Positions 26,887 to 44,671 of a stretch of 47,032 nucleotides of DNA are shown piece after piece. The notes under the pieces were generated by a model. The model saw only the letters and a program-made list of their open reading frames with translations. It was not told the DNA's origin and searched no databases. Both the position numbers and the translations under genes were made by a program. Position 1 is the first letter of the stretch. The number at the start of each line of letters is the position of its first letter. Source of the stretch: an uncultured Eubacteriales bacterium (lineage in GTDB: Bacteria; Bacillota; Clostridia; Christensenellales; Aristaeellaceae); the NCBI GenBank assembly GCA_902764875.1, contig CACWXP010000025.1, positions 1 through 47,032 on the forward strand. The letters run 5' to 3'.

Positions 26887-26911
26887 AAAACCTCCTGTTA
26901 TACTGAATAAG

Positions 26912-26975
26912 CCACATAATACAAGGCTTTCCGGCACGATTTATTTGCTGATGCGCCGGAAAAGCCCGTGCCGTG
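26912..26975. repeat. intercistronic hairpin, copy D (rfbD/rfbA gap)
   Basis: Core GGCTTTCCGGC (26925-26935) pairs with GCCGGAAAAGCC (26955-26966), with one bulge and weaker outer pairing (CACATAATAC side against GTGCCGTG). The 19-base loop contains CATCAGC on the minus strand. It has the same core and loop type as the copies at 29001, 41921, 42855 and 43900, and sits just upstream of the rfbA RBS. Confidence 0.7.
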
Positions 26976-26987
26976 AAACTTACACTG

Positions 26988-27914
26988 TTACAGTTTCGCT
27001 TCTTTCAGGTAACGGGCCACCGCGTCCTGCCATGGCGGAAGCGGTCTGAATCCGGCAGCTTCCAGCTTGCTTTTGTCCAGCCGGCTGTTTTCCGGCCGGG
27101 CGGCTTTGGAAAGGCCGTACTCCGCCGTGGTCACGGGGATCACCTGTGTGGAAAGGCCTGCCTGCCGGTAAAACTCACAGCAAAAATCATACCAGCTGAT
27201 ATATCCGCCGGGTTCGGATTCACTGTTCGTCGCGTGATAATAACCGTATTTGTCCGTTTCAATCATGTCCGCCAACAGACGAGCCAGATCCAGCGTATAG
27301 GTCGGCGTACCGATCTGATCGTTCACAACACGGACGACGTCGTGGGTTCTGCCCACATTGATCATGGTCCGGATAAAGTTCTTTCCGTTCAGTCCGAAAA
27401 CCCAGGCAATCCGAACAATAAAATATTTCTCCAGAATTGAGGAAACCGCCAACTCCCCATCCAGTTTGCTCTGCCCGTATACATTCAGCGGGGCATAACA
27501 CTTGTCATCCGGCTCCCAGGGGCGCTCCCCTTTTCCGTCAAACACATAATCCGTGGAAGTGTAGACCATCTTCGCGTCCGCAGCTTTGGCCGCTTCGGCA
27601 ATGTACCGTGTCCCCAGATGGTTGATCGCGTCCACTTTCACCCGGTTTTCTTCTTCTTCCGCCGCATCCACCGCCGTCCAGGCAGCGCAGTGAACAATTA
27701 CATCCGGACGGATTTCAGTGATCGTCTCTTTCACCGCTTCCGGATTCGTGATATCCAACCGGACATAAGGGGCAAAAACCACGGCTGTTCCGTCCAAAGC
27801 ACCGGAATAGGATGGCTGTATGTCCGAACCGACAGCCTCATGGCCCCTGGAAATCAGCTCATTCACACAGTCATGGCCCAGCTGGCCGCAGACGCCTGTC
27901 ACAAATACTTTCAT
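26988..27914 (-). CDS. rfbD: dTDP-4-dehydrorhamnose reductase
   Basis: NAD(P)H-dependent SDR enzyme for the last step of dTDP-L-rhamnose synthesis. VFVTGVCGQLGHDCVNEL is the nucleotide-binding start, TSTDYVFDGKGERPWEPDD the active-site strand, and YGQSKLDGE the catalytic Y..xK motif; AWVFGLNGKNFIRTM follows. The length of 308 residues is normal and there is no fused epimerase (rfbC). It begins directly before the rfbB stop region, with no gap worth noting. Confidence 0.95.
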   Translation of the reverse strand: MKVFVTGVCGQLGHDCVNELISRGHEAVGSDIQPSYSGALDGTAVVFAPYVRLDITNPEAVKETITEIRPDVIVHCAAWTAVDAAEEEENRVKVDAINHLGTRYIAEAAKAADAKMVYTSTDYVFDGKGERPWEPDDKCYAPLNVYGQSKLDGELAVSSILEKYFIVRIAWVFGLNGKNFIRTMINVGRTHDVVRVVNDQIGTPTYTLDLARLLADMIETDKYGYYHATNSESEPGGYISWYDFCCEFYRQAGLSTQVIPVTTAEYGLSKAARPENSRLDKSKLEAAGFRPLPPWQDAVARYLKEAKL

Positions 27915-28934
27915 TTATCTGTTCCCATACATCTTTTCATAGTAATGCTGATATTCGCCGCTGATGATTTCCTCCCACCATTCACGGTGATCCAGGTACC
28001 ATTGAATGGTTTTTTTGATCCCGTCGGCAAACTTCGTTTCCGGCAGCCATCCCAGCTCCTGATGAATCTTCGTCGGATCAATGGCATATCGCAGGTCGTG
28101 CCCCTTGCGGTCGGTCACATAGGTGATCAGATCCTCGCTCTTACCAAGCTCTTTGATGATCAGCTTCACAATGTCGATGTTCGCCATCTCGTTGTGGCCG
28201 CCCACATTATAGACTTCCCCGATACGGCCCTTCCGGACAATCAGGTCGATCGCCTTGCAGTGATCCTCCACATACAGCCAGTCCCGGACATTCTTCCCCT
28301 CGCCGTAAACCGGCAGGGGCTTGTCGTTCAGACAGTTGGCGATCATCAGAGGAATCAGTTTCTCCGGGAAATGATAGGGCCCATAGTTGTTTGAGCAACG
28401 GGAAATCGTCACCGGAAGCCCGTAGGTCCGGTGATAGGCCTGCACCAGGAGATCCGCGCCGGCCTTGCTGGAGGAATAGGGTGAAGAAGTATGAATCGGC
28501 GTTTCTTCGGTAAAGAAGAGATCCGGCCGGTCCAGGGGCAGGTCGCCGTACACTTCATCCGTGGACACCTGGTGATAGCGGATGTTCCCGAAAGCGCGGC
28601 AGGAGTCCATCATGGTCGCCGTACCGATAATGTTGGTCTGCAGGAAGATACCCGGGTTGTCAATGCTCCGGTCCACATGGCTCTCCGCTGCGAAATTGAT
28701 GACCGTGTCCGGTTTTTCTTCTTCAAAAACCTTGAATACACCTTCCCGGTCGCAGATGTCCAGTTTGCAGAAGCGGAAATTCGGGTTGTCCATCACCGGG
28801 ACCAATGTGGAAAGATTTCCGGCATAGGTCAGCTTGTCGATGCAGACCACACGGTCCTCCGGATGCTTCTTCAGATGATAGTGAATGAAGTTGCCGCCTA
28901 TGAATCCGGCGCCGCCGGTAACGATAATGGTCAT
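27915..28934 (-). CDS. rfbB: dTDP-glucose 4,6-dehydratase
   Basis: Converts dTDP-glucose to dTDP-4-dehydro-6-deoxyglucose. It shows TIIVTGGAGFIGGNFIHYHL, AAESHVDRSIDNPGIFLQTN, the STDEVYGDL motif and the catalytic YSSSKAGADLLVQAYHRTYGLP, then NNYGPYHFPEKLIPLMI. The length is 339 residues. ATG 28934 is chosen because AAAGGAG lies 8 bases upstream. The intermediate it makes can go to rhamnose through RfbC and RfbD, or to dTDP-4-amino sugars through the DegT enzymes in this operon. Confidence 0.97.
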   Translation of the reverse strand: MTIIVTGGAGFIGGNFIHYHLKKHPEDRVVCIDKLTYAGNLSTLVPVMDNPNFRFCKLDICDREGVFKVFEEEKPDTVINFAAESHVDRSIDNPGIFLQTNIIGTATMMDSCRAFGNIRYHQVSTDEVYGDLPLDRPDLFFTEETPIHTSSPYSSSKAGADLLVQAYHRTYGLPVTISRCSNNYGPYHFPEKLIPLMIANCLNDKPLPVYGEGKNVRDWLYVEDHCKAIDLIVRKGRIGEVYNVGGHNEMANIDIVKLIIKELGKSEDLITYVTDRKGHDLRYAIDPTKIHQELGWLPETKFADGIKKTIQWYLDHREWWEEIISGEYQHYYEKMYGNR

Positions 28935-29000
28935 GAACAGGTCTCCTTTCTGTTTTTCACAATGAAACATGGTCCGCATCGGACAAAGCTCTCAACCCGC

Positions 29001-29056
29001 CTGCATTGGGGTTCCGGCGCATGAATGTGCTGAAGCATCGGAAAACCTCAATGCAG
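29001..29056. repeat. intercistronic hairpin, copy E (FnlB/rfbB gap)
   Basis: Arms CTGCATTGGGGTTCCGGCGC (29001-29020) and the 22-base arm 29035-29056 (GCATCGGAAAACC then TCAATGCAG) pair over about 20 bases. The 14-base loop reads TTCAGCACATTCAT on the minus strand, close to copy B. It lies between the FnlB stop and the rfbB RBS; the remainder of the 170-base gap shows nothing else. Confidence 0.72.
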
Positions 29057-29104
29057 ACCGCAAAGCGCCTGTTCTGCGATGCAGTATATATCTGTCACCG
29101 AATA

Positions 29105-30304
29105 CTAAACCAGTTCCCGGAACGTGTCCGGCCGGTCCGGATCAAAAGGTTCATTGGCCCACATGAGGGTCACCAGGTTTTCGGTTTCGGAGAGGTTGAT
29201 GATACTATGCGCATATCCCGGCAGCATATGCACTGCCTGTATCTTATCCCCGCTTACCTCAAACTCCCGAATCTCATTTTTCCCGATTTTGCGTTCCCGG
29301 ATCAGGCCGTGACCGGACACCACGATGAAGAATTCCCATTTGGTATTATGCCAGTGCTGGCCTTTGGTCACACCGGGTTTGGAAATATTCACGCTGAACT
29401 GGCCGCAATCCGCGGTTTTCAGAAGTTCCGTAAAGGAACCCCGGTCGTCAACATTCATTTTCAGATCAAAGATCGTTTTCTCCTTCGGCAGATAACTCAG
29501 GAACATGGAATAGAGCTTCTTCTCAAAGCTGCCGGCGGGCATGGAGGGCATTCGCAGCGTTTTCGGCTGATCCCGGAAGGTTTCGAGCAGCTCCACAATC
29601 CGCCCCAGCGTGGCCTTATGCGTCACCGGGCAGAAACAGTAGCGGCCGTTCTCCGCAGGAACCGGGTTCACCCCGTCATATTCGCAGCGATGCGGCCGGC
29701 CTTCCATGCAGTCAAAAAGCTCTTCTATCAGATCGTCGATGAACAGCAGTTCCAGCTCCACCTTCGGATCGTTCACCGTGATCGGAAGATCGTTGGCAAT
29801 ATTGTTGCAGAAGGTGCCGATGGCACTGTTGTAATTCGGGCGGATCCATTTTCCCGCCAGGTTCGGAAAACGGTAGACATACACCGGTGCGCCGGTTTCT
29901 TCCCCGTAGGCGAACATCAGTTCCTCTCCGTCCCGTTTGCTTCGACCGTATTCGCTGTCGCCGAAGCGGCCGCTGAGCGTGGCCTGCACTGAGGAGGAAA
30001 TCATCACCGGCGCTTTATTGCTATGTTTCTTCAATGTATCCAGAAGCTGTGACGTAAAGCCAAAATTCCCGTTACGGAATTCCGCCGGATCCTTCGGACG
30101 GTTCACGCCGGCCAGATGGCAGACCCAACCCGCCTTCGCGCAGTAAGCATCCAGGTCTTCCGGCGTGGAATCGAGATCATACTCGTAAATCTCCCCGACG
30201 GAAAGACCCGGCCGCGTCCGGTTCTTCCCGTCCCGGATGCATTTCAGGTTCTCAACGATGTTCCGTCCGGCAAACCCCTTCGCGCCTGTCACCAGAATAT
30301 TCAT
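29105..30304 (-). CDS. fnlB: UDP-2-acetamido-2,6-dideoxy-hexose reductase, CapF/WbjC (FnlB) family
   Basis: Bifunctional enzyme of UDP-L-FucNAc synthesis: an N-terminal SDR reductase (MNILVTGAKGFAGRNIVENL, SSSVQATLSGRFGDSEYGRSKRDGEE) and a C-terminal cupin (about 280-399). The cupin metal site is seen in KGQHWHNTKWEFFIVVSGHG and YAHSIINLSE. The length of 399 residues is as expected. The ATG at 30304 overlaps the stop of the epimerase gene as TGATG, with GAAAGGAT upstream. Together with the two genes before it, it makes a complete set. Confidence 0.93.
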   Translation of the reverse strand: MNILVTGAKGFAGRNIVENLKCIRDGKNRTRPGLSVGEIYEYDLDSTPEDLDAYCAKAGWVCHLAGVNRPKDPAEFRNGNFGFTSQLLDTLKKHSNKAPVMISSSVQATLSGRFGDSEYGRSKRDGEELMFAYGEETGAPVYVYRFPNLAGKWIRPNYNSAIGTFCNNIANDLPITVNDPKVELELLFIDDLIEELFDCMEGRPHRCEYDGVNPVPAENGRYCFCPVTHKATLGRIVELLETFRDQPKTLRMPSMPAGSFEKKLYSMFLSYLPKEKTIFDLKMNVDDRGSFTELLKTADCGQFSVNISKPGVTKGQHWHNTKWEFFIVVSGHGLIRERKIGKNEIREFEVSGDKIQAVHMLPGYAHSIINLSETENLVTLMWANEPFDPDRPDTFRELV

Positions 30305-31473
30305 CAGATATCCTTTCTCCACACCATCTTATTCACAACCCCGACATAGCTCTGAATAATCTTCACAACCTTATCGGAGACATTGATGTCCTTATAATCC
30401 GGCACGGGAACGGCACCGCCGTCTTTTTCCTGCCGAACCATTTCCACCGCCGTATCAACCGCCTGCAGCAGGCCCTTTGTGTCGATGCCGGAAAGGATGA
30501 AGCAACCCTTGTCCAGGGCTTCCGGACGTTCGGTGCTTGTGCGGATGCAAACCGCCGGCACAGGCTTTCCAATGGAAACAAAGAAAGAGCTTTCCTCCGG
30601 CAGTGTGCCGGAATCAGACACTACACAGAAGGCGTTCATCTGCAGACAGTTATAATCGTGAAAACCGAGAGGTTCGTGCCGAATCACCCGGGGATCCAGC
30701 GCAAATCCGCTCTCTTCCAGTCGTTTCCGGCTTCTTGGATGGCAGGAATACAGGATCGGAAGATCATATTTCTCCGCCATTTGGTTGATCGCCGTGAAAA
30801 GCGAGGTGAAATTCTTTTCGGTGTCAATATTCTCCTCCCGATGGGCTGAAAGCAGAATGTATTTTCCCTTTTCCAGGCCGAGCCGTTCAAGAATATCCGA
30901 GGCTTCTATTGCAGCCAGATTCTCCGTCAGAACCTCCGCCATAGGGCTGCCGGTCACATAGGTCCGCTCCTTCGGCAGGCCGCAGTCCGCCAGATACCGG
31001 CGGGCATGCTCGGAATAGGCAAGGTTCACGTCGGAGATGATATCGACAATCCTGCGGTTCGTTTCTTCCGGCAGGCACTCGTCCTTGCAGCGGTTTCCGG
31101 CCTCCATGTGGAAAATCGGAATATGCAGGCGCTTCGCCCCGATCACCGACAGGCAGGAGTTCGTATCTCCGAGGACCAGCACCGCCTCCGGCTGCAGGGA
31201 AACCATCAGCTCATAGCTTTTCGCGATGATGTTTCCCATCGTTTCACCCAGATCTTTTCCGACCGCCTCCAGATATACGTCCGGATCGTCCAGGCCGAGG
31301 TCTTTGAAAAACACGCCGTTCAGGTTATAGTCATAGTTCTGTCCGGTATGGGCCAGCAGCGTATCGAAATACTTCCGGCATTTTTTGATGACCGCCGCCA
31401 GGCGGATGATTTCCGGCCGCGTGCCGACAATAATCAGCAGCTTCAGCCGGCCGTTGTTATTCCAGTCTGCCAT
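30304..31473 (-). CDS. fnlC: UDP-GlcNAc 2-epimerase family, CapG/WbjD (FnlC)
   Basis: Non-hydrolysing 2-epimerase, final step to UDP-L-FucNAc. It shows LLIIVGTRPEIIRLAAVIKK, LAHTGQNYDYNLNGVFFKDLG, VLVLGDTNSCLS, HMEAGNRCKDECLPEETNRRIVDIISD and SDSGTLPEESSFF. The replacement of the usual R..PEE.NR context by CLPEETNRR and the neighbours favour the FnlC branch over WecB. The length is 389 residues. It starts 3 bases after the fnlA stop. Confidence 0.92.
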   Translation of the reverse strand: MADWNNNGRLKLLIIVGTRPEIIRLAAVIKKCRKYFDTLLAHTGQNYDYNLNGVFFKDLGLDDPDVYLEAVGKDLGETMGNIIAKSYELMVSLQPEAVLVLGDTNSCLSVIGAKRLHIPIFHMEAGNRCKDECLPEETNRRIVDIISDVNLAYSEHARRYLADCGLPKERTYVTGSPMAEVLTENLAAIEASDILERLGLEKGKYILLSAHREENIDTEKNFTSLFTAINQMAEKYDLPILYSCHPRSRKRLEESGFALDPRVIRHEPLGFHDYNCLQMNAFCVVSDSGTLPEESSFFVSIGKPVPAVCIRTSTERPEALDKGCFILSGIDTKGLLQAVDTAVEMVRQEKDGGAVPVPDYKDINVSDKVVKIIQSYVGVVNKMVWRKDI

Positions 31474-31476
31474 TCC

Positions 31477-32532
31477 TTATGCCTCCACCAAATGGGGTCT
31501 GCCTTCCAGTTCTTCCTTCACATAGTCCGTGGTACTGATTTTTCTGACGACACCGTCCACATCCAGTCGGTTGGTGTTGTGGCTGGTGTAGGCTACCTCA
31601 CCTTCCGTGCGAACCGTGCCCTGGACATAGAATTTATCATAGTTCAATCCCCGGGAATCCGGTGCGATCCGGAAGTATTTGCCCATGTCCGTAGCCCGCA
31701 GGCGTTCTTCCCGGGTCATCAGGGTCTCATACAGTTTTTCTCCGTGGCGGCTGCCGATAATCTTGCATTCGGTCTCACCGAACAGCTTCATCACGCCCTT
31801 GGCCAGGTCCCCGATGGTACTGGCATCGGCTTTCTGGATAAACAGATCCCCCGGCTCCGCGTGCTCAAAGGCAAAGGCCACCAGGTCTACCGCCTCGTCC
31901 AGGTTCATCAGGAACCGCGTCATATTCGGATCGGTGATGGTAATCGGCGCCTTGCGCTTAATCTGGTCAATGAACAGCGGAATCACACTGCCCCGGGAAC
32001 ACATGACGTTGCCATAACGGGTGCAGCACAGCACGGATCCGCTGCGTTCAAAAGCCACCTGAGCCCTTGCCTGGACGATCTTCTCGGCCACAGCCTTGGT
32101 CATGCCCATGGTGTTGATCGGATAGGCAGCCTTGTCCGTAGAAAGGAAAGCCACCCGTTCCACCCTGTTCTCCACCGCGGCGGTGATCACGTTGTCCGTG
32201 CCCTGAATGTTGGTCTTCACCGCTTCCATCGGAAAAAACTCACAGGAGGGAACCTCCTTCAGCGCCGCCGCGTGGAAAACATAGTTCACACCGTACATTG
32301 CCTCCCGGACGGAGTCCGGATTGCGAACATCGCCGATGTAGAATTTCACTTTTCCGGCGTGTTCCGGGTAATTGGCCTGCAGGCTGTGGCGCATCCAGTC
32401 CTGTTTCTTTTCATCACGGCTGAAAATACGGATCTCTCCGATGTCCGAGGAAAGAAAGTGTTTGAGAACCGTGCTGCCGAAGGATCCGGTACCTCCGGTA
32501 ATGAGAAGGGTTGAACCGTTCCAGCTGTTCAT
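31477..32532 (-). CDS. fnlA: UDP-GlcNAc 4,6-dehydratase/5-epimerase, CapE/WbjB (FnlA) family
   Basis: First enzyme of UDP-L-FucNAc synthesis. NAD site LLITGGTGSFGSTVLKHFL; FHAAALKEVPSCEFFPMEAVKTN; and the unusual catalytic MGMTKAVAEK, with Met in place of the SDR Tyr, which is a CapE hallmark. The length of 351 residues is normal. Its ATG overlaps the stop of the polymerase gene as ATGA, with AGGAG upstream. It could also supply a 4-keto substrate to the aminotransferases. Confidence 0.94.
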   Translation of the reverse strand: MNSWNGSTLLITGGTGSFGSTVLKHFLSSDIGEIRIFSRDEKKQDWMRHSLQANYPEHAGKVKFYIGDVRNPDSVREAMYGVNYVFHAAALKEVPSCEFFPMEAVKTNIQGTDNVITAAVENRVERVAFLSTDKAAYPINTMGMTKAVAEKIVQARAQVAFERSGSVLCCTRYGNVMCSRGSVIPLFIDQIKRKAPITITDPNMTRFLMNLDEAVDLVAFAFEHAEPGDLFIQKADASTIGDLAKGVMKLFGETECKIIGSRHGEKLYETLMTREERLRATDMGKYFRIAPDSRGLNYDKFYVQGTVRTEGEVAYTSHNTNRLDVDGVVRKISTTDYVKEELEGRPHLVEA

Positions 32533-34028
32533 GATTGTTTTTCTCCTTTTTGCATTTCGCGTGCAAACGCGATCGTCAATCCTGCAAACAGATACAGGAG
32601 GGTCATCGGCGGTTTGCCAAAATTACAGTAACCAGCAACGTCGACCATATCGGCAAGCCAGCAGAGAAATGCCGGTAGCGGAATCAGACGCTGCCAGAAA
32701 GGCAGCTTCCTGTTTCGGAAAAGAAGGAAAGCGTTCCAAAGGAAGATCCCGAAGAAAGCCGTGAATAGCAGAAATCCCGGAATGCCGCTTTCCCAAAGCG
32801 TCTGGATGAAAGTGCTGTGAAAATGGTAGATGTACGGCAACGCCAGGCCGTAACGGATATAGTAATTTATGTGGTGCATCGGATCATGGACGCCGGCGCC
32901 GATCAACGCATAAATCGGATAGTGGCTGATGCCAGAGCAGCAGTGAATCCAGATCTGCCATCTGCCGGTCAGGAAGCCGTCGATCCCTTCATCGCTGACA
33001 AAAGACCTGGTCCCCAGGCGGTTGTCGTCTGCTTCACCACTCTCTTCGGCAGGATCCCGCATTTCGGATGGGTCAGTTTCTGCAGGCTTCTCTGCTTTTT
33101 CTTCCGCCGCAGCTGTTGAAATCAGGCTTTGGGATTTCAGGGAGTTAAAGACAGGAATCGCCTGCATCTGGACAAAGAGTAAAAGGAAGGTCAGCGCAGC
33201 AAAAACCGTGAAGGAAGCCCCAAGCCGAAGGAACGCAGACCTTTTCCCCTGTTTTTTCCGTTTCTGAAGCGTTTCATAAAGCAGCATGGCCGGCACAATA
33301 GCCACGGCCATGGCTGAAAGGATATAGCTGGTACGGGAAGCGCAGAAAACATTCAGCAGGAAAATCGCGAGGATCGCGGGGATATACAGCCATCGGAGCA
33401 GCTTCCGTTTTGTCATGAAGAAACCAACGAACGCCACCGCGATGCTGAGCGCCGCCAGGGTGCCGGCCTCCACCGGATGATAAACAGGCCAGAGACGCTT
33501 TTCGTTAGCAGGAAGCGTAAAAGGCCTGTTCCCGAAATTCGGAACCTCAACCCCCGTAAATGCCGTATACAGTCCAATACAGGAGTAAACTACCATCGCC
33601 AGCGTCCACAGAGCGCAGAACAGGGAAATGAATCTTTCTCTGTCTTTTCCGCCGAGGACGCGGCCGGCGCCGTAACAGATGTAGAAAGCATAAATGCAAA
33701 GTTCGTATACCGTCTGGGTTTCGCTGAGAAGCTCCGGCGTCGGGATCGCAATCCGCAGGATTTTTATCAGCAGCAGAACCGTCAGGATCCAGAAGCACTT
33801 GTCCTCCCACATCCGGCCGAGTATGATTGTAACTCCCGCCCAAAGTACCCAAACGAACCGCAACGGTATCGCACCGTTTTCCGGAAAAGGGAAAAAAACC
33901 GTCACATAAACATGATGCAAAAGCATCACCAGCGTGAAAGCCGTGTAGATCCAGGTGATCCATCGGGGCCTGGCTACCGGACCCATGATCCGTGTATTCG
34001 CGGTTTTACGAAAGGATTCTTTATTCAA
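32529..34028 (-). CDS. O-antigen polymerase/ligase-like membrane protein (Wzy-type)
   Basis: Integral membrane protein of 499 residues with about a dozen hydrophobic helices and a large extracytoplasmic loop (about 300-385) that contains an acidic, Pro/Glu-rich insert. The C-terminal H.....F.Q.LWE.GIPGFLLF motif (YHFHSTFIQTLWESGIPG) is typical of the Wzy/WaaL superfamily. It is either the repeat-unit polymerase or a ligase onto the cell wall. The start is TTG 34028: GGAGG lies 8 bases upstream and it overlaps the previous stop as TTGA. The longer frame to 34214 is a shadow. Confidence 0.82.
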   Translation of the reverse strand: MNKESFRKTANTRIMGPVARPRWITWIYTAFTLVMLLHHVYVTVFFPFPENGAIPLRFVWVLWAGVTIILGRMWEDKCFWILTVLLLIKILRIAIPTPELLSETQTVYELCIYAFYICYGAGRVLGGKDRERFISLFCALWTLAMVVYSCIGLYTAFTGVEVPNFGNRPFTLPANEKRLWPVYHPVEAGTLAALSIAVAFVGFFMTKRKLLRWLYIPAILAIFLLNVFCASRTSYILSAMAVAIVPAMLLYETLQKRKKQGKRSAFLRLGASFTVFAALTFLLLFVQMQAIPVFNSLKSQSLISTAAAEEKAEKPAETDPSEMRDPAEESGEADDNRLGTRSFVSDEGIDGFLTGRWQIWIHCCSGISHYPIYALIGAGVHDPMHHINYYIRYGLALPYIYHFHSTFIQTLWESGIPGFLLFTAFFGIFLWNAFLLFRNRKLPFWQRLIPLPAFLCWLADMVDVAGYCNFGKPPMTLLYLFAGLTIAFAREMQKGEKQS

Positions 34029-36816: not shown

Positions 36817-36832
36817 ACTCTTTTCCTCTTTA

Positions 36833-38260
36833 CTATTTTTTATATCGGAAGTTTTTCAGCACATCCAGCAGATAGCGGTAGCTTTCGTTTTTTGTTGCCG
36901 CGGAAAGTCCGGCGTAAAGGGCCGCGCCGAGGACAACCTGAATCAGCAGCGTTGCCCAGTCCGGAAGGCCGATCAACCCGACAACAAACACGCATCCTCC
37001 CATCACAGCGGCCAGCAGGATGTTCGGCAGAATATCCCTGATCTGATCCCCGTAGCTGTAGTCCAGCAGCTTCCGGTTCGGCCAGGTGTTGATCAGTTGA
37101 CAAAGCAGGCTGTTGACCAGCGTGCTCAGCGCCATCGCCAGCACGCTGATGTGCATCGTGATCAGGATCAGTGCAATGCCGATCACCTTTTTCAGAATCT
37201 CCAGTTTCAGAAAAAGGTCGCTGCGGCCCAGAGCCTTGATAGCGTTCAGGTTCGCGGTATGAATCGGGAAGAAAAGCATCGACGCGCAGAAGATCTGCAG
37301 ATACGGCACGCAGGGCATCCACTTCTCCGTCAGAATCAAACGGACCATCGGCGTTCCGACGCAGGCGATGCCGATCATCAGCGGCGCCATGATATAGGTG
37401 CTCGTCATGATGGCCCGGCGGGTCATCGCGCGGACCTTATACCGCTCATCCTGTTCCCGGCTCATGGTCGGCAGCAGCACGCTGTCGATAGAGGTATTCA
37501 CATTGGCGGCGATGACCTGGGGAAAAAGCTCGCCCCGGTTGTAGAAAGCCAGGTCTTCCGACGTGTATTTCCGGCCGATAATCAGCGACCGCGCCTCGTT
37601 GTACAGCGTGTCCAGCAGGGCTGAAAGCAGCAGCTTCCATCCGTAGGAAAGCAGGCCTTTCAGCCGTTCGAAAGAAAACATCCTTCTTGGATGCCATTTC
37701 ACCGTAATCGTCAGGATCACCGTGTCCGTCAGCACGTTGAACAGCTGCTGGGCCACCAGCGCCCACACCCCGTATCCCCGGTAGGCCATCGTGATACCGA
37801 TCACCGCGGCGCCGACGGTACCGCCCAGGGTCGAGAAAAAGAACTTCCGGAACTGCATCGTCCGAGAGACATAAGCTTGGTAGACGTTCTTGACCCCTGA
37901 GATCACGATCTGGAGTCCCAGCACCCGCAGGATCAGCGTCAGTTCCTCCCGGTGATAGAAGGAGGCCACCAGCGGGGAAATCAGGAACAGAATCCCGTAG
38001 AGCACAATGCACCAGACCACGTTGAACCAGAAGACGCTGGAAAAATCCAGGTCGTCCGCGTCCTTCTTCTGGATCAGGGCGTTGCCCAGGCCGCTGTCCA
38101 CAAACACGTTGAATACCGTGATGAAAACCGCCACCATGGCGATCACGCCGTACTGCTCCGGCAGCAAAATCCGGGCCAGCACCAGCTCCACCAGCAGCTT
38201 CACGCCCTGGGCCCCGACGCGCTCTGCCAAGCGCCACAGGAAATTTTTGATCACGTTCAC
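36833..38260 (-). CDS. Wzx-type polysaccharide flippase (WzxC-like)
   Basis: Exports the lipid-linked repeat unit across the membrane. It has 475 residues with hydrophobic helices throughout. The start IKNFLWRLAERVGAQGVKLLVELVLARILLPEQYG and the DSGLGNALIQKKDADDLDFSSVFW segment are typical of the WzxC/EpsK branch. GTG 38260 is chosen because it overlaps the previous stop as GTGA and has GGGGA 8 bases upstream. The longer frame to 38341 mirrors the glycosyltransferase. Confidence 0.92.
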   Translation of the reverse strand: MNVIKNFLWRLAERVGAQGVKLLVELVLARILLPEQYGVIAMVAVFITVFNVFVDSGLGNALIQKKDADDLDFSSVFWFNVVWCIVLYGILFLISPLVASFYHREELTLILRVLGLQIVISGVKNVYQAYVSRTMQFRKFFFSTLGGTVGAAVIGITMAYRGYGVWALVAQQLFNVLTDTVILTITVKWHPRRMFSFERLKGLLSYGWKLLLSALLDTLYNEARSLIIGRKYTSEDLAFYNRGELFPQVIAANVNTSIDSVLLPTMSREQDERYKVRAMTRRAIMTSTYIMAPLMIGIACVGTPMVRLILTEKWMPCVPYLQIFCASMLFFPIHTANLNAIKALGRSDLFLKLEILKKVIGIALILITMHISVLAMALSTLVNSLLCQLINTWPNRKLLDYSYGDQIRDILPNILLAAVMGGCVFVVGLIGLPDWATLLIQVVLGAALYAGLSAATKNESYRYLLDVLKNFRYKK

Positions 38261-39231
38261 TTCCGGATTCCCCGAATCATATCTTTCACCCTGTTCATGG
38301 GCCCCGGAATCACCGTGCGGATCTTCTCCAGTGTCCGCCACACCGGCGACGCGTCGTCATAGGCGTGCAGGTATTTTTTCATGTTTTCCCGGTCCCCAAG
38401 GTTTGCATACATGTCAAACAGCTGGCGATCCCGTACTTTCCGGATCAATTCCGTGTATTTTCCTTCCGTATAAGCGTCCATTCGGTCCATCATGTTCGCG
38501 AATTCGACCACGCGCGCCCTGTAAACCTCCGGCCGCTTATGCGTGTCGTCAGAAAAGGAACCGGAATTCCCGATCCGGTAGGCGCCGGTCAGCCGGTCGA
38601 TGTAATGCACCTTTCCCTTCAGCGCCATATACACCATCCGCGCATAATCCTCGTTCACGCAGGTGCCGAGGAACGGAATAATCACGTCCTCTTCCAGGCA
38701 GGCCTTCCGGTAGACCACGGTGTTGGTGGCCGCCTTCCAGCCTTCGAGAATTTCTTCGACGGTCAGATCCCGTGAAGCAGTGTACGTCCGGAAAACCTTA
38801 TCTGTCCGCAGGGTGCCATCCGGGTTTGCGTAGTGGGAGGCCGTGACGCACATGCTGCAGTCCGGATGGCTTTCCAGCCAGTCTGTCTGGATCTGCAGTT
38901 TTTCCGGATCCGTCCAGAAATCGTCGCCTTCGCAGATCGCGATATATTTCCCCCGGGCCATGGCAAACATCTTCGCGAAGGAATCGTTGGTCAGACCCCG
39001 GCTGAAATGGTTGAACTCCAGAATGAAGGGGATCACCAGGCCCGGGTATTTCTGCGCGTATGCCCGGATGATGTCCCCCGTGCCGTCGGTAGAGCAGTCG
39101 TCCCGGACGATGATTTCAAAAGGGAAATCCGTCTTCTGCGAAACCATACCGTCCAGGCATTGGGCAATATACTTTTCGTGGTTATATGTCGTTACAAGCA
39201 CGCTGACCAGGCATTCGTATTCCTGATCCAA
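38257..39231 (-). CDS. family 2 glycosyltransferase
   Basis: Inverting GT-A glycosyltransferase that adds a sugar to the growing repeat unit on the cytoplasmic face. CLVSVLVTTYNHEKYIAQCLDGM starts the fold, IIVRDDCSTDGT binds the nucleotide, and ICEGDDFWTDPEKL is the DXD-type metal motif. The length is about 324 residues. TTG 39231 gives 9-base spacing from AAGGAG; another TTG at 39237 lies only 3 bases from it. It is packed between a polymerase-like gene and the flippase. Confidence 0.9.
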   Translation of the reverse strand: MDQEYECLVSVLVTTYNHEKYIAQCLDGMVSQKTDFPFEIIVRDDCSTDGTGDIIRAYAQKYPGLVIPFILEFNHFSRGLTNDSFAKMFAMARGKYIAICEGDDFWTDPEKLQIQTDWLESHPDCSMCVTASHYANPDGTLRTDKVFRTYTASRDLTVEEILEGWKAATNTVVYRKACLEEDVIIPFLGTCVNEDYARMVYMALKGKVHYIDRLTGAYRIGNSGSFSDDTHKRPEVYRARVVEFANMMDRMDAYTEGKYTELIRKVRDRQLFDMYANLGDRENMKKYLHAYDDASPVWRTLEKIRTVIPGPMNRVKDMIRGIRK

Positions 39232-39237
39232 GTCCAA

Positions 39238-40578
39238 TCACTCCTTCTGAATGCCCGGCAGGGGCTTGAAACTCTCCGGCACATCGGGAACCGGATCACC
39301 GCTGTCATACCCGCCCCAGACCAATCCCGCTGCCAGCAGGATAAACACCACAGTCAGATCGCTGTGGATCAGGAACATTCCTTTGAAATTGACGATGCCG
39401 AAGACAAACAGCCACAGTACCGCCCAAAAGATCCCGGTCTCCCGACGGACGGCCTTACTGCGCATCATCCGCCACAGGGTCAGCAAATACGTCCCGTACA
39501 TCGCTACACAATACACCAGACCGCCGCGCCAAAGGTCGTTCATAAAGCCAATGTCCGACGCCGTGCCGTATTTTTCCTCCACTACGCCGCCGATAATTTC
39601 CGTGCCGGCGCCGAAGATCAGCTTCAGCCCCTTCGGAAAATGATCCGGCGAAAGCATCCAGGCAATTTCCCCGAAGTACCCGTCCGAATATCCCGTTTCC
39701 TCGCCCGCCACAAAGGTGGAAACCTGCTCAAGCCCCCGGGTCAGCCATTCGTGGGTCATCGGATTAACAAAGCGCACAAGCCCGAGGCCGAAATACGCAG
39801 CCGCCGCGAAACCAAGCGCGATTCCGATATATGCCAGAATCCGTTTCCAATCCTTCGTGAACAGCAGGGCAATACCGACTGCCGCCATACCGGCCGCCAG
39901 CAGGTATACCGATACCCTGGCATTGATGTTTGCCGAGAAAGCCAGCACAGGAAACGCGATCAGCCACAAATGTTTTCCCCGCACACCGCGCCAGAAGGCG
40001 ACACAGGCAAGAATCGCCTGCACATAGGCCGCCGTGGAGGTCAGATTCGCCGCCAGGCCGAAGTTCCGGTAAGCGGACAGCTTGACAGCGATCATTTTGG
40101 ATGACCCGTAGGCAATGGTTTTCTCCGTAAAGAACTCTTTAACAGCAGGGATAAGGAAAGCCGCTATGACGGTCGCCGCCATCAGCAAACCCGTCCAAAG
40201 AATATGATCCAGCAGTTCGGAAACCCCAAGGCCCCGTTTTCGAAGCGCAACCCAGCAGACCAGCGCGAAAGGGATATCTGCCGCCATCCAGTAGGCAAAA
40301 AAGCCGTGCTGCGAGAAGGGATTGCCATTCAGCTTTGACAGCACCATGAGATAAGCAAAAACAACGCCGAGGAAAACCTCTGTCCAAATAACCGTCCGAA
40401 GCTTCACAAATGCCTTCAGTTCCTTCCAGTTCAGCAGAAGGTAAACGACGGAAGGAATCATCACCAGCCAGGCGCTGTTGGATGTGAACAGCGGCGAGAG
40501 GATCGGCGGATTGTAAATCAGCAGGTACATGAACAGGATCATGGGAATGCTGATCATTTTCTTTCCGATTTTGATCAT
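39238..40578 (-). CDS. second polymerase-like integral membrane protein
   Basis: Hydrophobic protein of 446 residues with about eleven transmembrane segments. A soluble loop at about 270-340 contains FPKGLKLIFGAGTEIIGGVVEEKYGTASDIGFMNDLWRGGL, the GxGT...sDxGf..........G pattern of Wzy-type polymerases. The operon therefore encodes two such proteins; this one probably polymerises while the other ligates, or the reverse. The ATG has AAGGAT upstream and lies 20 bases after the preceding gene. Confidence 0.78.
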   Translation of the reverse strand: MIKIGKKMISIPMILFMYLLIYNPPILSPLFTSNSAWLVMIPSVVYLLLNWKELKAFVKLRTVIWTEVFLGVVFAYLMVLSKLNGNPFSQHGFFAYWMAADIPFALVCWVALRKRGLGVSELLDHILWTGLLMAATVIAAFLIPAVKEFFTEKTIAYGSSKMIAVKLSAYRNFGLAANLTSTAAYVQAILACVAFWRGVRGKHLWLIAFPVLAFSANINARVSVYLLAAGMAAVGIALLFTKDWKRILAYIGIALGFAAAAYFGLGLVRFVNPMTHEWLTRGLEQVSTFVAGEETGYSDGYFGEIAWMLSPDHFPKGLKLIFGAGTEIIGGVVEEKYGTASDIGFMNDLWRGGLVYCVAMYGTYLLTLWRMMRSKAVRRETGIFWAVLWLFVFGIVNFKGMFLIHSDLTVVFILLAAGLVWGGYDSGDPVPDVPESFKPLPGIQKE

Positions 40579-40598
40579 TCGGTTATATCCTTATTGTT

Positions 40599-41903
40599 TC
40601 ATGCTTTGCTCGCAGCATCGACAAGAGCTTTGCGAACAGTTTCCCGGGTTCCCTCCGGAGAATGGTTCTTTCGGGCCAGTGCTTTCGCGTTTTCCATCAT
40701 TCTCCTGTATTCCGCCTCGTCTGTAAACATGCGTTCCAAAATCCCCGGCAGTTCTTCCGGAGCAGTTGCAATAAACGCTGCATCGTTGCGGATCAGATAA
40801 TCCATGGAAGCAACCTCCGCCGGACCGAAGGCCAGCAGCCCTGTCCCGCTGGCCAGGCAATCCGGAATCTTCGTCGAAAAAGAGTATCGCACCTGCGCCC
40901 GGATCATGGGGTCAAAGGATTCCGTGTGAATCACAGCCTTGGCTTTCCGGATGATGCCAGCCACCTGATTCCCCGGAACCGCTCCATGAAAGTGGATTCC
41001 CGGATGGTTCTTCAAGGGAACCAAATAAGCCGGGTCTGTTTCCGCAGAGTAGACATCCACTGCCTCCGGAATCCCGTTTCCGCCGCATTTCTTCAGTGCA
41101 TCCGCAATGGCGCACAGCTGTTCATTTCGCCCCAGGCTCACATCGCCGAGATAGACAATCCCCGCCTTTTCCGTCGTTTCCATTTCTTCTCCGGTCCCGG
41201 ATGCCGCATAAACCACGCCGCACTTGCGGCCGAACAACTCACTGTATGCCTCCGACATCATCTCGTTCAGCGTCAGAATCCCGGCCGCGCCGTCCATGGT
41301 CTCCCGAACGACCTTCATGAAACATCTCTGGCGGAACTCCCCCAGGAACATCTCCCGGTTGGGGTTAAAAAGATAGAAATCGTCAAAACAGCAGACTACA
41401 TACGGAACGCCCAGCCGTCTTGCGAGAAACTGTGTGATCCGATAGGAAAAGGCATAATCCCCGGAGGCATAGAAAATCACGTCCGGTTTGAAATTCTCCG
41501 CCCATTCCACCATGCCGGAATGCTTCCATCCGGAGACATGCCACATTGCGTCACGCCCGAGGAAAATCAGCGGTGTCCGCCGCCGACCGTAGTTGTAAAC
41601 GCCGGTGAGGTTCCCTTTGTCCAAAGTACTTCCGCGATCCGTCCGAACATCCGATTCCGAATAGATTTTCCCCCGACGACGGCGCCGGAAGACGGATTTC
41701 AGCGCATCGGGATCCGTGAACCGGAAATAGTTTCCGCAAAGAGGATCTGTCGGCACTTCCGATTGAATGTACAACTGCGCAATGGCATCAGAAGGCCAGC
41801 CGGAAAAATAGGTATCCATGGTTCTTCCCATACCGGTGGTCCTGGACAGCACCTCATGGCTGATGATCAATACCCTTGGATAGTGACGTTCGGTGTCGTG
41901 CAA
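40599..41903 (-). CDS. glycosyltransferase, GT-B fold (family 4-like)
   Basis: Probable retaining glycosyltransferase of 434 residues. The N-terminal half starts RVLIISHEVLSRTTGMGRTM, and the nucleotide-binding half has IVYLGDVSLGRNEQLCAIADAL and GIHFHGAVPGNQVAGIIRKAKAVIHTES. The usual E..G.P..EA motif is weakened to SFSTKIPDCLASGTGLLAFGP, so the donor is hard to guess. TTG start with AGAGGT upstream. The long hairpin copy A ends about 18 bases before it. Confidence 0.82.
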   Translation of the reverse strand: MHDTERHYPRVLIISHEVLSRTTGMGRTMDTYFSGWPSDAIAQLYIQSEVPTDPLCGNYFRFTDPDALKSVFRRRRRGKIYSESDVRTDRGSTLDKGNLTGVYNYGRRRTPLIFLGRDAMWHVSGWKHSGMVEWAENFKPDVIFYASGDYAFSYRITQFLARRLGVPYVVCCFDDFYLFNPNREMFLGEFRQRCFMKVVRETMDGAAGILTLNEMMSEAYSELFGRKCGVVYAASGTGEEMETTEKAGIVYLGDVSLGRNEQLCAIADALKKCGGNGIPEAVDVYSAETDPAYLVPLKNHPGIHFHGAVPGNQVAGIIRKAKAVIHTESFDPMIRAQVRYSFSTKIPDCLASGTGLLAFGPAEVASMDYLIRNDAAFIATAPEELPGILERMFTDEAEYRRMMENAKALARKNHSPEGTRETVRKALVDAASKA

Positions 41904-41920
41904 CGTTTATACCTCTGAAC

Positions 41921-41986
41921 AGCCCGGGATACAAGGCTTTCCGGTGTAGTATTACTGATACACCGGAAAGCCTGTATCCCCGGGCT
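41921..41986. repeat. intercistronic hairpin, copy A (licD/GT gap)
   Basis: The longest copy: two 28-base arms (41921-41948 and 41959-41986) pair almost perfectly around a 10-base loop. The inner stem is GGCTTTCCGGTGTA / TACACCGGAAAGCC and the outer stem AGCCCGGG / CCCGGGCT, with small bulges. It lies between the licD-like stop and the RBS of the next gene. The remainder of the 122-base gap shows nothing else. Confidence 0.8.
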
Positions 41987-42025
41987 CACCGGTTCGTCTC
42001 CATCTGCAACGGAGGGGACATCCCT

Positions 42026-42838
42026 TCACTCCAGATAGCTTTGATGCAGATCGCAGGAAAGAAAGTCGTGGTTGGTAACGCGCTTTTCTTCCGGCGGCAA
42101 CTGATGCCAGTCACCAAAAAGAGCGGTCAGAAATTCATCAGCATGCTCGGCTCCGAGAATCTGATGCCCTTCAAAGGGATAATCAGTTGGGGTTCCAAAA
42201 AGTTCCCGCAAAACAACGGAACGATCCGACAAATCTTCCAGCAAACTTCCGACCCATTTCGAACGGTCGAAATCGTACTTCGTGCACATCCGGCTGATTT
42301 CCTTGCGCAGAACAGTATTGTCCACAATGCGGTCCGGGATGATCTTGGCCAGCACCGCAGCCAAGTTTTTCAGCGCGCTGCGCCCTTCCCGCACAACAGT
42401 AACCCGGGCCAGATAGAGCCAGGCCTTGCGCTTGATTTTTCCGTAATACTTCAGGTCCGGACCCTCACCGTTCCCGATACCGTCCAGCGGGAAAACATCC
42501 AGAAACAGGCCCCTTTTCAGCCCGGTAGCGACGTCTTCCTGCAAAGTCGTTGATGTGTCATATAGTTTTGAGAAGAAATAGCAGAATTTCGGATCCGGGG
42601 AGTTTTCGGTTTCAAGAACATAGCCGTCGCGGATTTCACTGCCCATCAGTTCGGCAAGGCGCTCGTAGTCCGGCCGGGGCATGCCCACGTCCACATCGTC
42701 GTCCCAGGGGATGAAGCCCTGATGGCGGCAGGCCCCGAGAAGCGTACCACCCAGAGCGTAATAACGCAGGTTGTTCGCCCGGCAGAAGCCGTCGAACCAC
42801 ACCAGCATATCGAGGAGTTTTTTCTGAATTTCGGTCAT
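42026..42838 (-). CDS. LicD-family phosphotransferase
   Basis: LicD-type enzyme, known for moving phosphocholine or another phospho-group from a CDP-activated donor onto a glycan. It has 270 residues. The diagnostic block YYALGGTLLGACRHQGFIPW then DDDVDVGMPRPDYERL is at about 27-61, with its Asp triad. ATG 42838 is chosen for AAAGGAT 5 bases upstream; a longer frame to 42898 runs through hairpin copy B. A LicC-like cytidylyltransferase is encoded about 22 kb away in the same window. Confidence 0.88.
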   Translation of the reverse strand: MTEIQKKLLDMLVWFDGFCRANNLRYYALGGTLLGACRHQGFIPWDDDVDVGMPRPDYERLAELMGSEIRDGYVLETENSPDPKFCYFFSKLYDTSTTLQEDVATGLKRGLFLDVFPLDGIGNGEGPDLKYYGKIKRKAWLYLARVTVVREGRSALKNLAAVLAKIIPDRIVDNTVLRKEISRMCTKYDFDRSKWVGSLLEDLSDRSVVLRELFGTPTDYPFEGHQILGAEHADEFLTALFGDWHQLPPEEKRVTNHDFLSCDLHQSYLE

Positions 42839-42854
42839 AACAGATCCTTTAAAG

Positions 42855-42918
42855 CCACAGGACACAAGGCTTTCCGGTGTCGAATGATGCTGAAACACCG
42901 GAAAGCCTGTGCCTGCGG
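42855..42918. repeat. intercistronic hairpin, copy B (GT2/licD gap)
   Basis: Arms 42855-42880 and 42895-42918 pair through the core GGCTTTCCGGTGT / ACACCGGAAAGCC and an outer CCACAGG / CCTGCGG section. The loop is CGAATGATGCTGAA (TTCAGCATCATTCG on the minus strand). It lies just upstream of the licD RBS. Confidence 0.8.
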
Positions 42919-42962
42919 TCTCCGACGTAGTTTTATGCTGAAGCCTGTGTCTGCGACCTCCG
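42903..42962. repeat. tandem partial copy of the hairpin arm
   Basis: The 22-base word AAGCCTGTGYCTGCGRYCTCCG occurs at 42903-42924 (the second arm of copy B) and again at 42941-42962, a period of 38. The second occurrence also has ATGCTGAA directly before it, so it looks like an arm plus loop end without its partner arm. Confidence 0.6.
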
Positions 42963-43002
42963 GCTTGGGTTCAGCGGTGAATGAAAGGTTTTTATCGAAG
43001 AA

Positions 43003-43854
43003 TTACTCTCGCGCGAGTTTCCGGAAGATCAACCCTCGCAGTCTGTTGGGCATCAGCACCTGCAAAACAAATCGCTCCGCCACGTTAACACAGTACCTGG
43101 GGAATGAAATCATTTTGTTCCGGAGCATCAGTTTCTGAAGTCCGGCTTCGCTTCTGAAATATTTGCGGCCGCCGCGACGCTGATACATTTCTTCGCCCAC
43201 CCGGACGTTCACAAGGTTTTCGGGAATGTTTCCAAATTTCCTGCCGGCCAGGCCCAGACGAATCCAGAGGTAGTAGTCCTCGTTCTGATAGTAACCGTCC
43301 ATGTATCCGCCGCAGGCGGCAACGTCGTCCTTTTTCACCATCACCGAAACATGGTTCATCGGGCAGCGTTTTTTCATGTATTCCCGGATTTCCGCGTCGG
43401 TTTCCGGAACCGTCCGGGTGCCGGCCTTCCGGGAAAGATCCGCAGGATCTTCCGCAGAAACAAATTCCGTAATATATCCGCCAAAGACGGAGATATCCGG
43501 ATGATCGGCAAAATATCGTATCTGCTTTTCAAAGCGATCCGGTACGGACACGTCATCCGCGTCCATCATGGCAATCAGCGGGTACCGGCATTCTCCGAAG
43601 CCGAGACGCTTGGCCCCGCCGCAACCGAGATTCGTTTCGGAGCGGATCACCCGGAAATCGGTTCCGCCGGAAGCAAGCTCTTCCGAGTACTTCCGGATCA
43701 CTTCCTCCGTTCCGTCCGAAACCGGCCCGTCCACCACCAGCACGATCTCCGCGGGCGGCAGCGTCTGGCCGGCGATGCTGCGCAGGGCCAGATCAAAATG
43801 CTCCGGCCGGTCGCCGGCATAAACCAGCATCAGGACCGAAAAGTCATTTCCCAT
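43003..43854 (-). CDS. family 2 glycosyltransferase
   Basis: GT-A glycosyltransferase of 283 residues. FSVLMLVYAGDRPEHFDLALRSI then EIVLVVDGPVSDGTEEVI and the metal motif MMDADDVSVPDRFEKQI identify it; GYYQNEDYYLWIRLGL is the conserved ED block. Similar enzymes add rhamnose or galactose in exopolysaccharide repeats. The ATG has AGGAG 12 bases upstream. It follows the sugar-phosphate transferase across hairpin copy C, so it may add an early sugar to the primed lipid. Confidence 0.88.
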   Translation of the reverse strand: MGNDFSVLMLVYAGDRPEHFDLALRSIAGQTLPPAEIVLVVDGPVSDGTEEVIRKYSEELASGGTDFRVIRSETNLGCGGAKRLGFGECRYPLIAMMDADDVSVPDRFEKQIRYFADHPDISVFGGYITEFVSAEDPADLSRKAGTRTVPETDAEIREYMKKRCPMNHVSVMVKKDDVAACGGYMDGYYQNEDYYLWIRLGLAGRKFGNIPENLVNVRVGEEMYQRRGGRKYFRSEAGLQKLMLRNKMISFPRYCVNVAERFVLQVLMPNRLRGLIFRKLARE

Positions 43855-43899
43855 TCAGTCATAAAACTCCTGTCTGTTTACGGCATCGCGTATGGTGCC

Positions 43900-43956
43900 C
43901 GGACACAGAATTTACGGCGTTTCAGCATCATCATACGCTGTAAAGCCCTGTGTCCG
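43900..43956. repeat. intercistronic hairpin, copy C, overlapping the end of the sugar transferase gene
   Basis: Arms 43900-43920 and 43935-43956 pair around the loop TTCAGCATCATCAT (plus strand). The loop is that of copy B in inverted orientation. The stem has pair-preserving changes against copy B (C-G to A-T and T-A to C-G). The second arm encodes the last residues and stop codon of the sugar-phosphate transferase. Confidence 0.72.
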
Positions 43957-44671
43957 AAGTCTCGTGCAGCAATTCACGGGCTTCTTTCTGCTTCGCGTCG
44001 TATTCTTCCCGGGTGATTCTGCCAGCCTTGAGCAGCGCGTCGCCGTAGTCGTCGGTCACGTCCAGCTCGCTGCTGCTTTCCTTTTTCCCAAATATCTTCA
44101 GGATCGTTTTCATCACGATCGCAAAATCCCCGGCGAAGGTGATCTTTTCGATGTATTGCAGGTCGTATGCAAACTTCTGTTCCCAGCCGATCGCGTTCCG
44201 GCCGCTGATCTGGGCCAGGCCGGTCAGGCCGGGCTTCGCCGTGTGGCGCCTGCGGACCCGCTCGTCCATGAACACCATGTCGCGCACCAGCTGGGGCCGC
44301 GGGCCCACCAGCGACATATCGCCCCGGAGAATGTTGAACATCTCCGGCAGCTCGTCGAGACTAGTGCCGCGCAGGAATCTTCCGAAAGCCGTCAGCCGCT
44401 CTTCATCCGGAAGCAGATTGCCGGCCGCGTCCTTTCCGTCCGTCATCGTGCGGAACTTGTACATGCTGAAGATCTTTTCGCTTCCGGTCTTCGGATCGAT
44501 GAGGCCGGGGCGGGGCTGCCGGAAAATCACCGGCGAACCCATCTTCACCCGGACCAGCACCGCCAGGATCAGATACAGCCAGCTCAGCAGCACCACCGTC
44601 AGCAGCGCCAGCAGGAGATCCAGCAGGCGCTTTATCACCTTTTCATAGAAGCCACGCTTCCGTACCGTCAT
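43931..44671 (-). CDS. initiating sugar-phosphate transferase (WbaP/EpsL type)
   Basis: Transfers a sugar-1-phosphate from a UDP-sugar to undecaprenyl phosphate, starting repeat-unit assembly. It has 246 residues: one N-terminal membrane helix (about 18-42) and a catalytic domain with PVIFRQPRPG, MYKFRTM, the SLDELPEMFNILRGDMSLVGPRP block and AKPGLTGLAQISGR. The C-terminal ~50 residues extend past the core (FGKKESSSELDVTDDYGDALL). ATG 44671 is chosen because it overlaps the previous stop as ATGA with AGGTG upstream. The aminotransferase gene just before it suggests that an amino sugar is the first residue. Confidence 0.95.
   Translation of the reverse strand: MTVRKRGFYEKVIKRLLDLLLALLTVVLLSWLYLILAVLVRVKMGSPVIFRQPRPGLIDPKTGSEKIFSMYKFRTMTDGKDAAGNLLPDEERLTAFGRFLRGTSLDELPEMFNILRGDMSLVGPRPQLVRDMVFMDERVRRRHTAKPGLTGLAQISGRNAIGWEQKFAYDLQYIEKITFAGDFAIVMKTILKIFGKKESSSELDVTDDYGDALLKAGRITREEYDAKQKEARELLHETSDTGLYSV

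Follow-up and report, generated by a model that had tools for sequence, protein, structure and literature searches.

A palindromic repeat family, probably REP/MITE-like and lineage-specific, in the surface-polysaccharide genes of an uncultured Eubacteriales bacterium

Our analysis of a 47,032-nucleotide stretch of DNA from an uncultured Eubacteriales bacterium (contig CACWXP010000025.1; hereafter the window) revealed long hairpins in a surface-polysaccharide gene cluster, which probably represent a lineage-specific, non-autonomous family of palindromic repeats, REP/MITE-like in kind and with one in-frame insertion of the Rickettsia type, rather than a conserved riboregulator of polysaccharide genes. 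The features of REP/MITE-like repeats in the broad sense were found: related palindromes stand at unrelated sites and in both orientations, and relatives carry element-free sites (at the copies designated F, G and H). The original prediction had offered two candidate roles, a tuned intercistronic RNA element and a REP/MITE-like repeat, of which the second is favored here and the first is not. So far, the family has been found in one bacterial species, judging from the genomes searched. As far as the literature and Rfam were searched, it is undescribed, in agreement with the earlier statement that no known family has this core: no relevant paper was found, and no Rfam match at or above the gathering score was obtained for the window or for loci L021 and L023.

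The five copies in the window (Table 1) lie in a cluster that, according to Pfam, encodes sugar-nucleotide enzymes, DegT, LicD, glycosyltransferases and Wzx/Wzy-like proteins, with a few open reading frames left without a match. Hairpins had been predicted at all five places, and RNA folding of copies A to E (-30.7, -35.3, -52.5, -46.0 and -27.4 kcal/mol) against 200 shuffles each confirmed them, with 0, 7, 0, 0 and 5 shuffles, respectively, folding as well. A covariance model (R3) built from C, D and four copies from outside the window, with A, B and E left out, retrieved E and A at high scores and B weakly (E-value about 2e-4). Thus, A to E are related members of one family, the most divergent being B, with 53-60% identity to the other copies. 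Copy E is inverted relative to A-D, scoring 49.7 bits on the forward strand and 24.2 on the reverse. The probable truncated copy D' was recognized from a direct repeat and alignment, the score of R3 there being only 8.0 bits.

Table 1. Repeat copies and the enclosing gene cluster in the window
Feature	Positions	Strand	Neighbors or content	Score or remark
Copy A	26912..26976	-	between RmlD-like gene and NTP_transferase gene	47.3 bits, model built without A
Copy B	28998..29057	-	between PF14667 gene and GDP_Man_Dehyd gene	24.7 bits, model built without B
Copy C	41922..41986	-	between LicD gene and glycosyltransferase gene	
Copy D	42855..42917	-	between GT2 glycosyltransferase gene and LicD gene	
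D', probable truncated copy	~42926..42962	-	directly upstream of D	left arm and TCAGCATAAAAC loop; boundaries by eye
Copy E	43898..43960	+	overlaps Bac_transf gene end	inverted relative to A-D
Surface-polysaccharide gene cluster	25999..46997	-	holds copies A-E	assigned by Pfam

The element has a core of about 63 bases, extended up to about 80 by outer arms, and forms in its best copies a stem of at least 23 pairs, usually with one bulged base, closed by a loop of about 10-15 bases in which TCAGYA is kept. The stem core proposed as common to the family is identical letter for letter only in C and D and varies in A, B and E. Pairwise identity among the copies ranges from 53 to 92%. The pair-preserving character of the stem changes was confirmed over all nine copies known in the genome, where 9 of 23 pairs changed on both sides with pairing kept, a number reached by none of 500 shuffles. 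Inspection of the nine sequences by eye revealed no T-run after the stem. The terminator scan admits loops of 3-8 bases only and is therefore unable, by itself, to test these hairpins.

The source genome (3.27 Mb, 93% complete and in 67 contigs, judged from the assembly) contains nine copies according to two models: five in the window, three on contig C10 and one on contig C5, so that the family is not confined to the operon in the window. Synteny with the relative G030 suggests that C10 and the window contig are probable neighbors, in which case eight of the nine copies would fall in about 30 kb. This is neither of the outcomes on which the original prediction had rested its choice between roles, namely hundreds of copies genome-wide or copies in surface-polysaccharide loci only. 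Seven copies separate genes of one cluster that are read in the same direction, with E extending partly over a gene end; the C5 copy is flanked by genes for an FtsX permease and a PfkB protein, outside the polysaccharide genes. Gene ends are reached twice: E covers the last nine codons and the stop (43931-43933) of the upstream sugar-transferase (Bac_transf) reading frame, contrary to the claim that every copy lies between a stop codon and the next ribosome-binding site, and a stop also lies in the outer arm of H. No further place resembling a partial copy was present among the BLAST matches listed for the genome. The copy number is very low for a mobile repeat, yet the divergence between copies is strong, and the crowding of eight copies is not predicted by free transposition; both observations speak against a mobile family.

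Comparison with relatives revealed sites without the element. At G and H it is absent in G030 and G035, in which the flanking genes align; such unstructured gaps in close relatives were the finding that the original prediction had named as telling against it. A coding gene harbors copy F in frame, its reading frame being kept open, and this gene shows a net in-frame gain of 57 bases, element included, relative to five orthologues, all of which are without the element and align with each other without a gap at the insertion place. In both orthologues examined, Pfam recognized a MarR-type HTH domain (best E-values 1e-4 and 4e-5, both matches falling short of its curated cut-off), and none was detected at E-values up to 0.1 in the protein carrying F; the NTP-transferase domain downstream of F retains a third-position-biased pattern of change. 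At A-E, the neighboring gene order differs from that of G030, and for this reason insertion and rearrangement are indistinguishable there; the element-free sites of relatives are those of G, H and the gene-internal F. Model R3, run with default filters over 11 loci (105,430 bases; pieces of the G030, G035 and G025 clusters and two own-genome stretches outside the copies), found nothing above 15.4 bits.

The scan of 45 genus genomes, the source genome among them, gave no convincing copy in any of the 44 congeners, and none was found elsewhere in the scans of 308 family and 396 order genomes, sets that overlap and each include the source genome. In the two larger scans, in which 17 and 13 candidates from the first look were scored per genome, respectively, all nine own places were recovered with a model that contains these copies. 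A single GTDB-wide pattern scan, which may exclude records near the genome of the window, gave one match, rejected for lack of an element-type fold (9.3 bits); the pattern fits six of the nine known copies and could therefore miss diverged ones. In the plasmid and phage collections, each queried with one copy, no match was obtained, and in viral contigs the full pattern matched nothing and a half-element pattern matched 20 loci, by pattern alone.

Weaker matches in relatives are mostly read as other hairpins. Out of five in the genus (23-28 bits), four do not form the long hairpin (L026-L029) and one, in G043 (L025), folds but is without the TCAGCA loop. The family scan gave G241 (32.7 bits), G141 (30.3 bits) and G156 (28.3 bits). 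With more candidates scored, matches at E-values up to 1 appeared in seven of eight chosen genomes, the source genome included; G141 then gave 15, the best at 39.8 bits, a level of resemblance that counts against a family restricted to one lineage. Those of the 15 that were inspected represent either a hairpin resembling a terminator or a separate hairpin family that has flanking sequences of its own. The one look-alike in G241, with the same bulge and another loop, is a borderline case. The order-level match (38.1 bits, in G375) differs in its loop and forms a perfect hairpin that is longer.

A functional RNA element between the genes of polysaccharide operons, tuning stability, processing or antitermination between segments, would agree with the placement of seven copies between co-directional genes, the stable folds, the two-sided pair changes and the absence of T-runs, which indicates that the copies are not simple terminators. 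We nevertheless regard such an element as unlikely, given that the G and H sites are element-free in relatives with the same neighbor genes, that R3 retrieved nothing above 15.4 bits from the searched pieces of relatives' clusters, and that one copy lies within a reading frame and another outside polysaccharide genes; the inversion of one copy is weak evidence, because a palindrome folds in either direction. A conserved riboregulator in particular was rejected on account of the element-free sites and the in-frame copy. A derivation from decayed or read-through intrinsic terminators could be argued from the stem word GGCTTTCC/GGAAAGCC, shared with hairpins of terminator type in this bacterial family: a seven-T run follows the word in a G141 match, and a G156 match has a weaker T-rich tail. 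An origin of this kind is hardly credible for nine copies without a T-run, with a specific common loop and mostly a bulge, standing mid-operon or inside a gene.

Conceivably, glycosyltransferase and sugar-enzyme genes were exchanged at the palindromes, which would either mark the exchange points or bring them about, so that the cluster is shuffled there. Relative to G030, conservation is lacking at five of the seven scored cluster junctions that hold an element, compared with three of the 18 that do not (Fisher p 0.017), in a hand-scored, post hoc table against this one relative. Although suggestive, this excess at rearranged junctions is fragile: p becomes 0.066 if the copy C junction is counted as conserved, 0.076 if three left-out junctions are added as not conserved, and 0.21 with both changes. 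None of the matches obtained in the other 44 genomes (six candidates scored per genome) spans the FtsX-PfkB junction of the C5 copy, both halves of which were matched on different contigs in G008 and G036; D and E, an inverted pair, stand on either side of GT2a. Against such a role, G and H stand at conserved junctions, and rearranged junctions may simply have longer, insertion-accepting gaps. We consider the exchange of genes at these palindromes quite improbable, and give equally little credence to its fuller form, in which folded hairpins would be recombination or insertion sites for gene swaps in a modular cluster and an in-frame drop-in would have removed a regulatory domain while the enzyme was kept. 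If true, this fuller form would account for the gathering of eight of the nine copies in a single cluster and for their position mostly at rearranged junctions.

Under the preferred reading of a mobile palindromic family, insertion of the copies would have followed the split of the source species from the sequenced relatives, with most entering tolerant intergenic gaps of one polysaccharide cluster, two extending over a gene end and one entering a gene in frame. A transposase or recombinase may move the hairpin as DNA, and the palindrome could be kept by selection or by the copying mechanism. As a side effect, by analogy with what is held for classical REPs, intercistronic copies may act as stable RNA hairpins protecting or separating operon segments. 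The Y1 transposase (RAYT, PF01797) gave no match in the 93% complete source genome, whereas five of 14 control genomes matched, and no target-site duplication was seen by eye in the flanks; both results weigh against a mobile repeat, and a RAYT-driven REP was rejected on the former. The finding contributes a hitherto undescribed family of palindromic repeats, unusual in its distribution, and an apparent Rickettsia-type in-frame insertion in another bacterial lineage. Furthermore, the element-free sites in relatives provide a handle on repeat movement where no transposase is known and on whether repeats shape surface-polysaccharide diversity.

Among known systems, MITEs such as ERIC, BOX and RUP are short, palindromic, dispersed both ways and able to donate stops or coding sequence. 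The present elements resemble them as short palindromes, dispersed in both orientations, that can supply stops or coding sequence, and differ in having nine copies, no known parent transposon and no visible target-site duplication. The JUMPstart/ops element is likewise associated with polysaccharide operons, where it stands as one copy in the leader, in contrast to the several intergenic copies here. REP elements of the GTAG/CGTC superfamilies are described as mostly intergenic hairpin repeats with family-specific stems and complementary changes, some being intragenic (PMC3733652). Our family shares the mostly intergenic hairpins, the complementary stem changes and an intragenic copy; it differs in its stem, of at least 23 pairs in the best copies compared with 5-13 bp in REPs, and in its nine copies in a genome with no Y1/RAYT gene found. 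By eye, no GTAG or CGTC end tag stands out in the copy alignments. Rickettsia palindromic elements, according to a review, are palindromic, lineage-specific repeats, some of which lie in frame in coding genes (PMC10969869). These are longer, at about 150 bp compared with 63-80 here, and belong to a different bacterial lineage; by description, they are alike in being palindromic and lineage-specific and in the in-frame insertion with the gene kept open, seen here in one copy of nine.

The hairpins A-E of the window had been predicted to form one family, and this was borne out by a covariance model (R3) built only from copies C, D, F, G, H and I, an independent test of A, B and E. In the window R3 recovered copies E (49.7 bits), A (47.3 bits) and B (24.7 bits, E 2e-4), the top score away from the five copies being 11.6 bits; copy B, with the lowest recovery, is therefore the least certain family member. 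Run against the own genome with an E limit of 1, model R1, built from the five copies, revealed 16 matches, of which 14 (both strands counted) represent nine places: five in the window, three on contig C10 (copies F, G and H) and one on contig C5 (copy I); the two remaining matches were weak (E 0.29 and 0.98). Model R2, built from nine copies, also gave 16 matches at the same nine places. The core regarded as common to the five hairpins is exact in C and D and occurs with variants in A, B and E.

Hairpins A-E are hosted by a minus-strand polysaccharide cluster, the Pfam content of which comprises sugar-nucleotide enzymes, DegT aminotransferases, LicD, glycosyltransferases, Wzx/Wzy-like proteins and a bacterial sugar transferase. 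Copy E is inverted, its arm order and TTTCAGCAT loop matching those of copy D when the + strand is read, and R3 scores it at 49.7 bits on the + strand vs 24.2 bits on the - strand. The placement of each hairpin between a stop codon and the next RBS fails for copy E, which overlaps the end of the upstream sugar-transferase ORF and takes in its stop codon. A probable truncated copy adjoining copy D (42926-42962), with a C10-type loop TCAGCATAAAAC, was recognized by eye; its R3 score is only 8.0 bits, spanning 12 positions, and it suggests nested or tandem insertion. Outside the cluster, the protein encoded at window 9367-10506, which matches a caspase domain weakly (Peptidase_C14, E 3.5e-5), adjoins a protein of peptidoglycan-binding repeats.

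Table. Hairpin copies and repeat-like sequences in corresponding gaps of relatives. Fold energies refer to stretches of 83-91 bases, with 200 shuffles each.
Feature	Position	Fold (kcal/mol)	Shuffles as stable	Junction vs G030
Copy A	26912-26976 (-)	-30.7	0/200	not conserved
Copy B	28998-29057 (-)	-35.3	7/200	not conserved
Copy C	41922-41986 (-)	-52.5	0/200	not conserved
Copy D	42855-42917 (-)	-46.0	0/200	not conserved
Copy E	43898-43960 (+)	-27.4	5/200	not conserved
Copy G				conserved
Copy H				conserved
RATCCTTCG...CTCAGRATGAC type, corresponding gaps of G030 cluster	L091 8258-8365 and 12974-13093			
RATCCTTCG...CTCAGRATGAC type, corresponding gap of G025 cluster	L092, gap before LuxE			

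Pair-preserving stem differences between copies were confirmed by the nine-copy alignment, in which 89% of cells are paired and two-sided changes occur at 9 of 23 pairs. The covariation score, the paired percentage and either two-sided count were reached by none of 500 shuffles and the 'further pair types' statistic by 66 of 500, with a bias in favour of the structure tested, as it was derived from the same nine sequences. The family thus keeps its palindromes, or copies them as palindromes; since the copies are paralogues within one genome, covariation does not prove an RNA function.

Copies F, G and H lie in or between the genes of C10 for a permease/HTH/NTP-transferase fusion, transketolase subunits, an AMP-binding enzyme, a thioesterase and LuxE, and copy I lies between FtsX-permease and PfkB genes. 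The relatives G030 and G035 have the same neighbours at the site of copy G (transketolase C / AMP-binding) and keep both genes at that of copy H (thioesterase / LuxE), in each case without the element. Across 11 loci (pieces of the clusters of relatives, together with two stretches of the own genome) R3 found nothing above 15.4 bits. By eye, a different repeat-like sequence (RATCCTTCG...CTCAGRATGAC) lies in the gap at G in G030 and in that at H in G025, and recurs in the G030 gap preceding u356. Because this type is found there in relatives, the gaps at G and H seem receptive to unrelated repeats.

Copy F is located inside the N-terminal HTH part of an HTH-NTP-transferase region that shares a single open frame with an ABC permease (L021 9806-12445). 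The frame is kept in five congeners (L187-L191), whose orthologues are 69-75% identical across the matched part, with open frames of 860-944 aa; their mutual alignment is gap-free at the point of the own gene's net gain of 57 bases (19 codons), element included. The local HTH sequence is replaced, beyond mere interruption. In each of the two orthologues submitted to Pfam a MarR-type HTH was seen (E 1.2e-4 and 4.2e-5, neither reaching the curated score cut-off), and in the own copy-F protein none at E up to 0.1. The enzyme domain 3' of copy F stays open, with changes concentrated at third codon positions (differences at positions 1, 2 and 3 of 0.16, 0.17 and 0.57 vs L187, and of 0.20, 0.20 and 0.42 vs L190, the lowest contrast), and most of its divergence may predate the insertion.

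Beyond the own genome, the overlapping genus, family and order sets gave matches in 6 of 45 (E up to 0.01), 4 of 308 and 2 of 396 genomes, respectively, the own genome being one each time. The five other genus matches were weak (23-28 bits) and not convincing; the other three at family rank scored 28-33 bits and, besides that in G241, were terminator-like hairpins, and the one at order rank, of 38.1 bits, is a perfect hairpin of another kind. The lone G241 hairpin (L125 1501-1557), with the core and the bulged base of the family but another loop and other neighbouring genes, is possibly a distant relative. A looser search matched 7 of 8 chosen genomes, own included, with up to 39.8 bits in G141, where the matches examined were other hairpins. 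This genome, of a different genus in the same family, carries a separate family of hairpin repeats, alike in their flanks and variable in the stem (L161, L173, L175). A GTDB-wide scan with an exact pattern, which fits six of the nine own copies, gave a single match that is not an element. Searches of viral, plasmid and phage sequences yielded nothing usable, apart from 20 candidate loci listed by one of them. No description of the family was found in the term-located passages of PMC10969869, PMC3733652, PMC8040213 and PMC2267715 or in search listings.

Copies A-I probably form a young, lineage-specific palindromic repeat family of the REP/MITE/RPE class, which accounts for the inverted copy, the element-free sites, the copy inserted in frame, the overlaps with gene ends and the copy outside the cluster. 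These same features are not explained by a conserved riboregulator; of the RNA element and the REP/MITE-like repeat originally offered, the repeat is supported. A Y1 transposase, a candidate mover from this class, was not found in the own genome. The main part left unexplained by the repeat-family reading is the clustering of copies. In G030, C10-type and window-type genes are consecutive on one contig; C10 and the window contig are thus very probably neighbours, which would place eight of nine copies in about 30 kb. The chance of at least eight of nine so clustered is about 1e-13, with a generous 60 kb allowed.

Clustering and an excess of the element at non-conserved junctions are the basis for regarding the hairpins as recombination joints of the polysaccharide cluster, which we consider very unlikely. 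In a table hand-scored against G030, 2 of 7 junctions with the element are conserved vs 15 of 18 without it (Fisher p 0.017); however, p becomes 0.066 if the junction of copy C, whose scoring is debatable given a distant LicD at that place in G030, is counted as conserved, 0.076 if three left-out element-free junctions are added as not conserved, and 0.21 with both changes. These three are permease-NTP gene / next HTH-NTP gene, the latter / PglD-like gene, and the last two ORFs, 24584-26218 / 23110-24576; also left out were the F gene (copy inside) and I (beyond the cluster), and the LuxC/u356 junction was scored only via the inferred join of C10 and the window contig. As p shifts with scoring choices, the excess is suggestive at most, and these rescorings made the recombination-joint reading slightly less probable to us.

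Our comparisons with JUMPstart, ERIC, BOX and RUP draw on general background. Those with RPEs follow the review PMC10969869.
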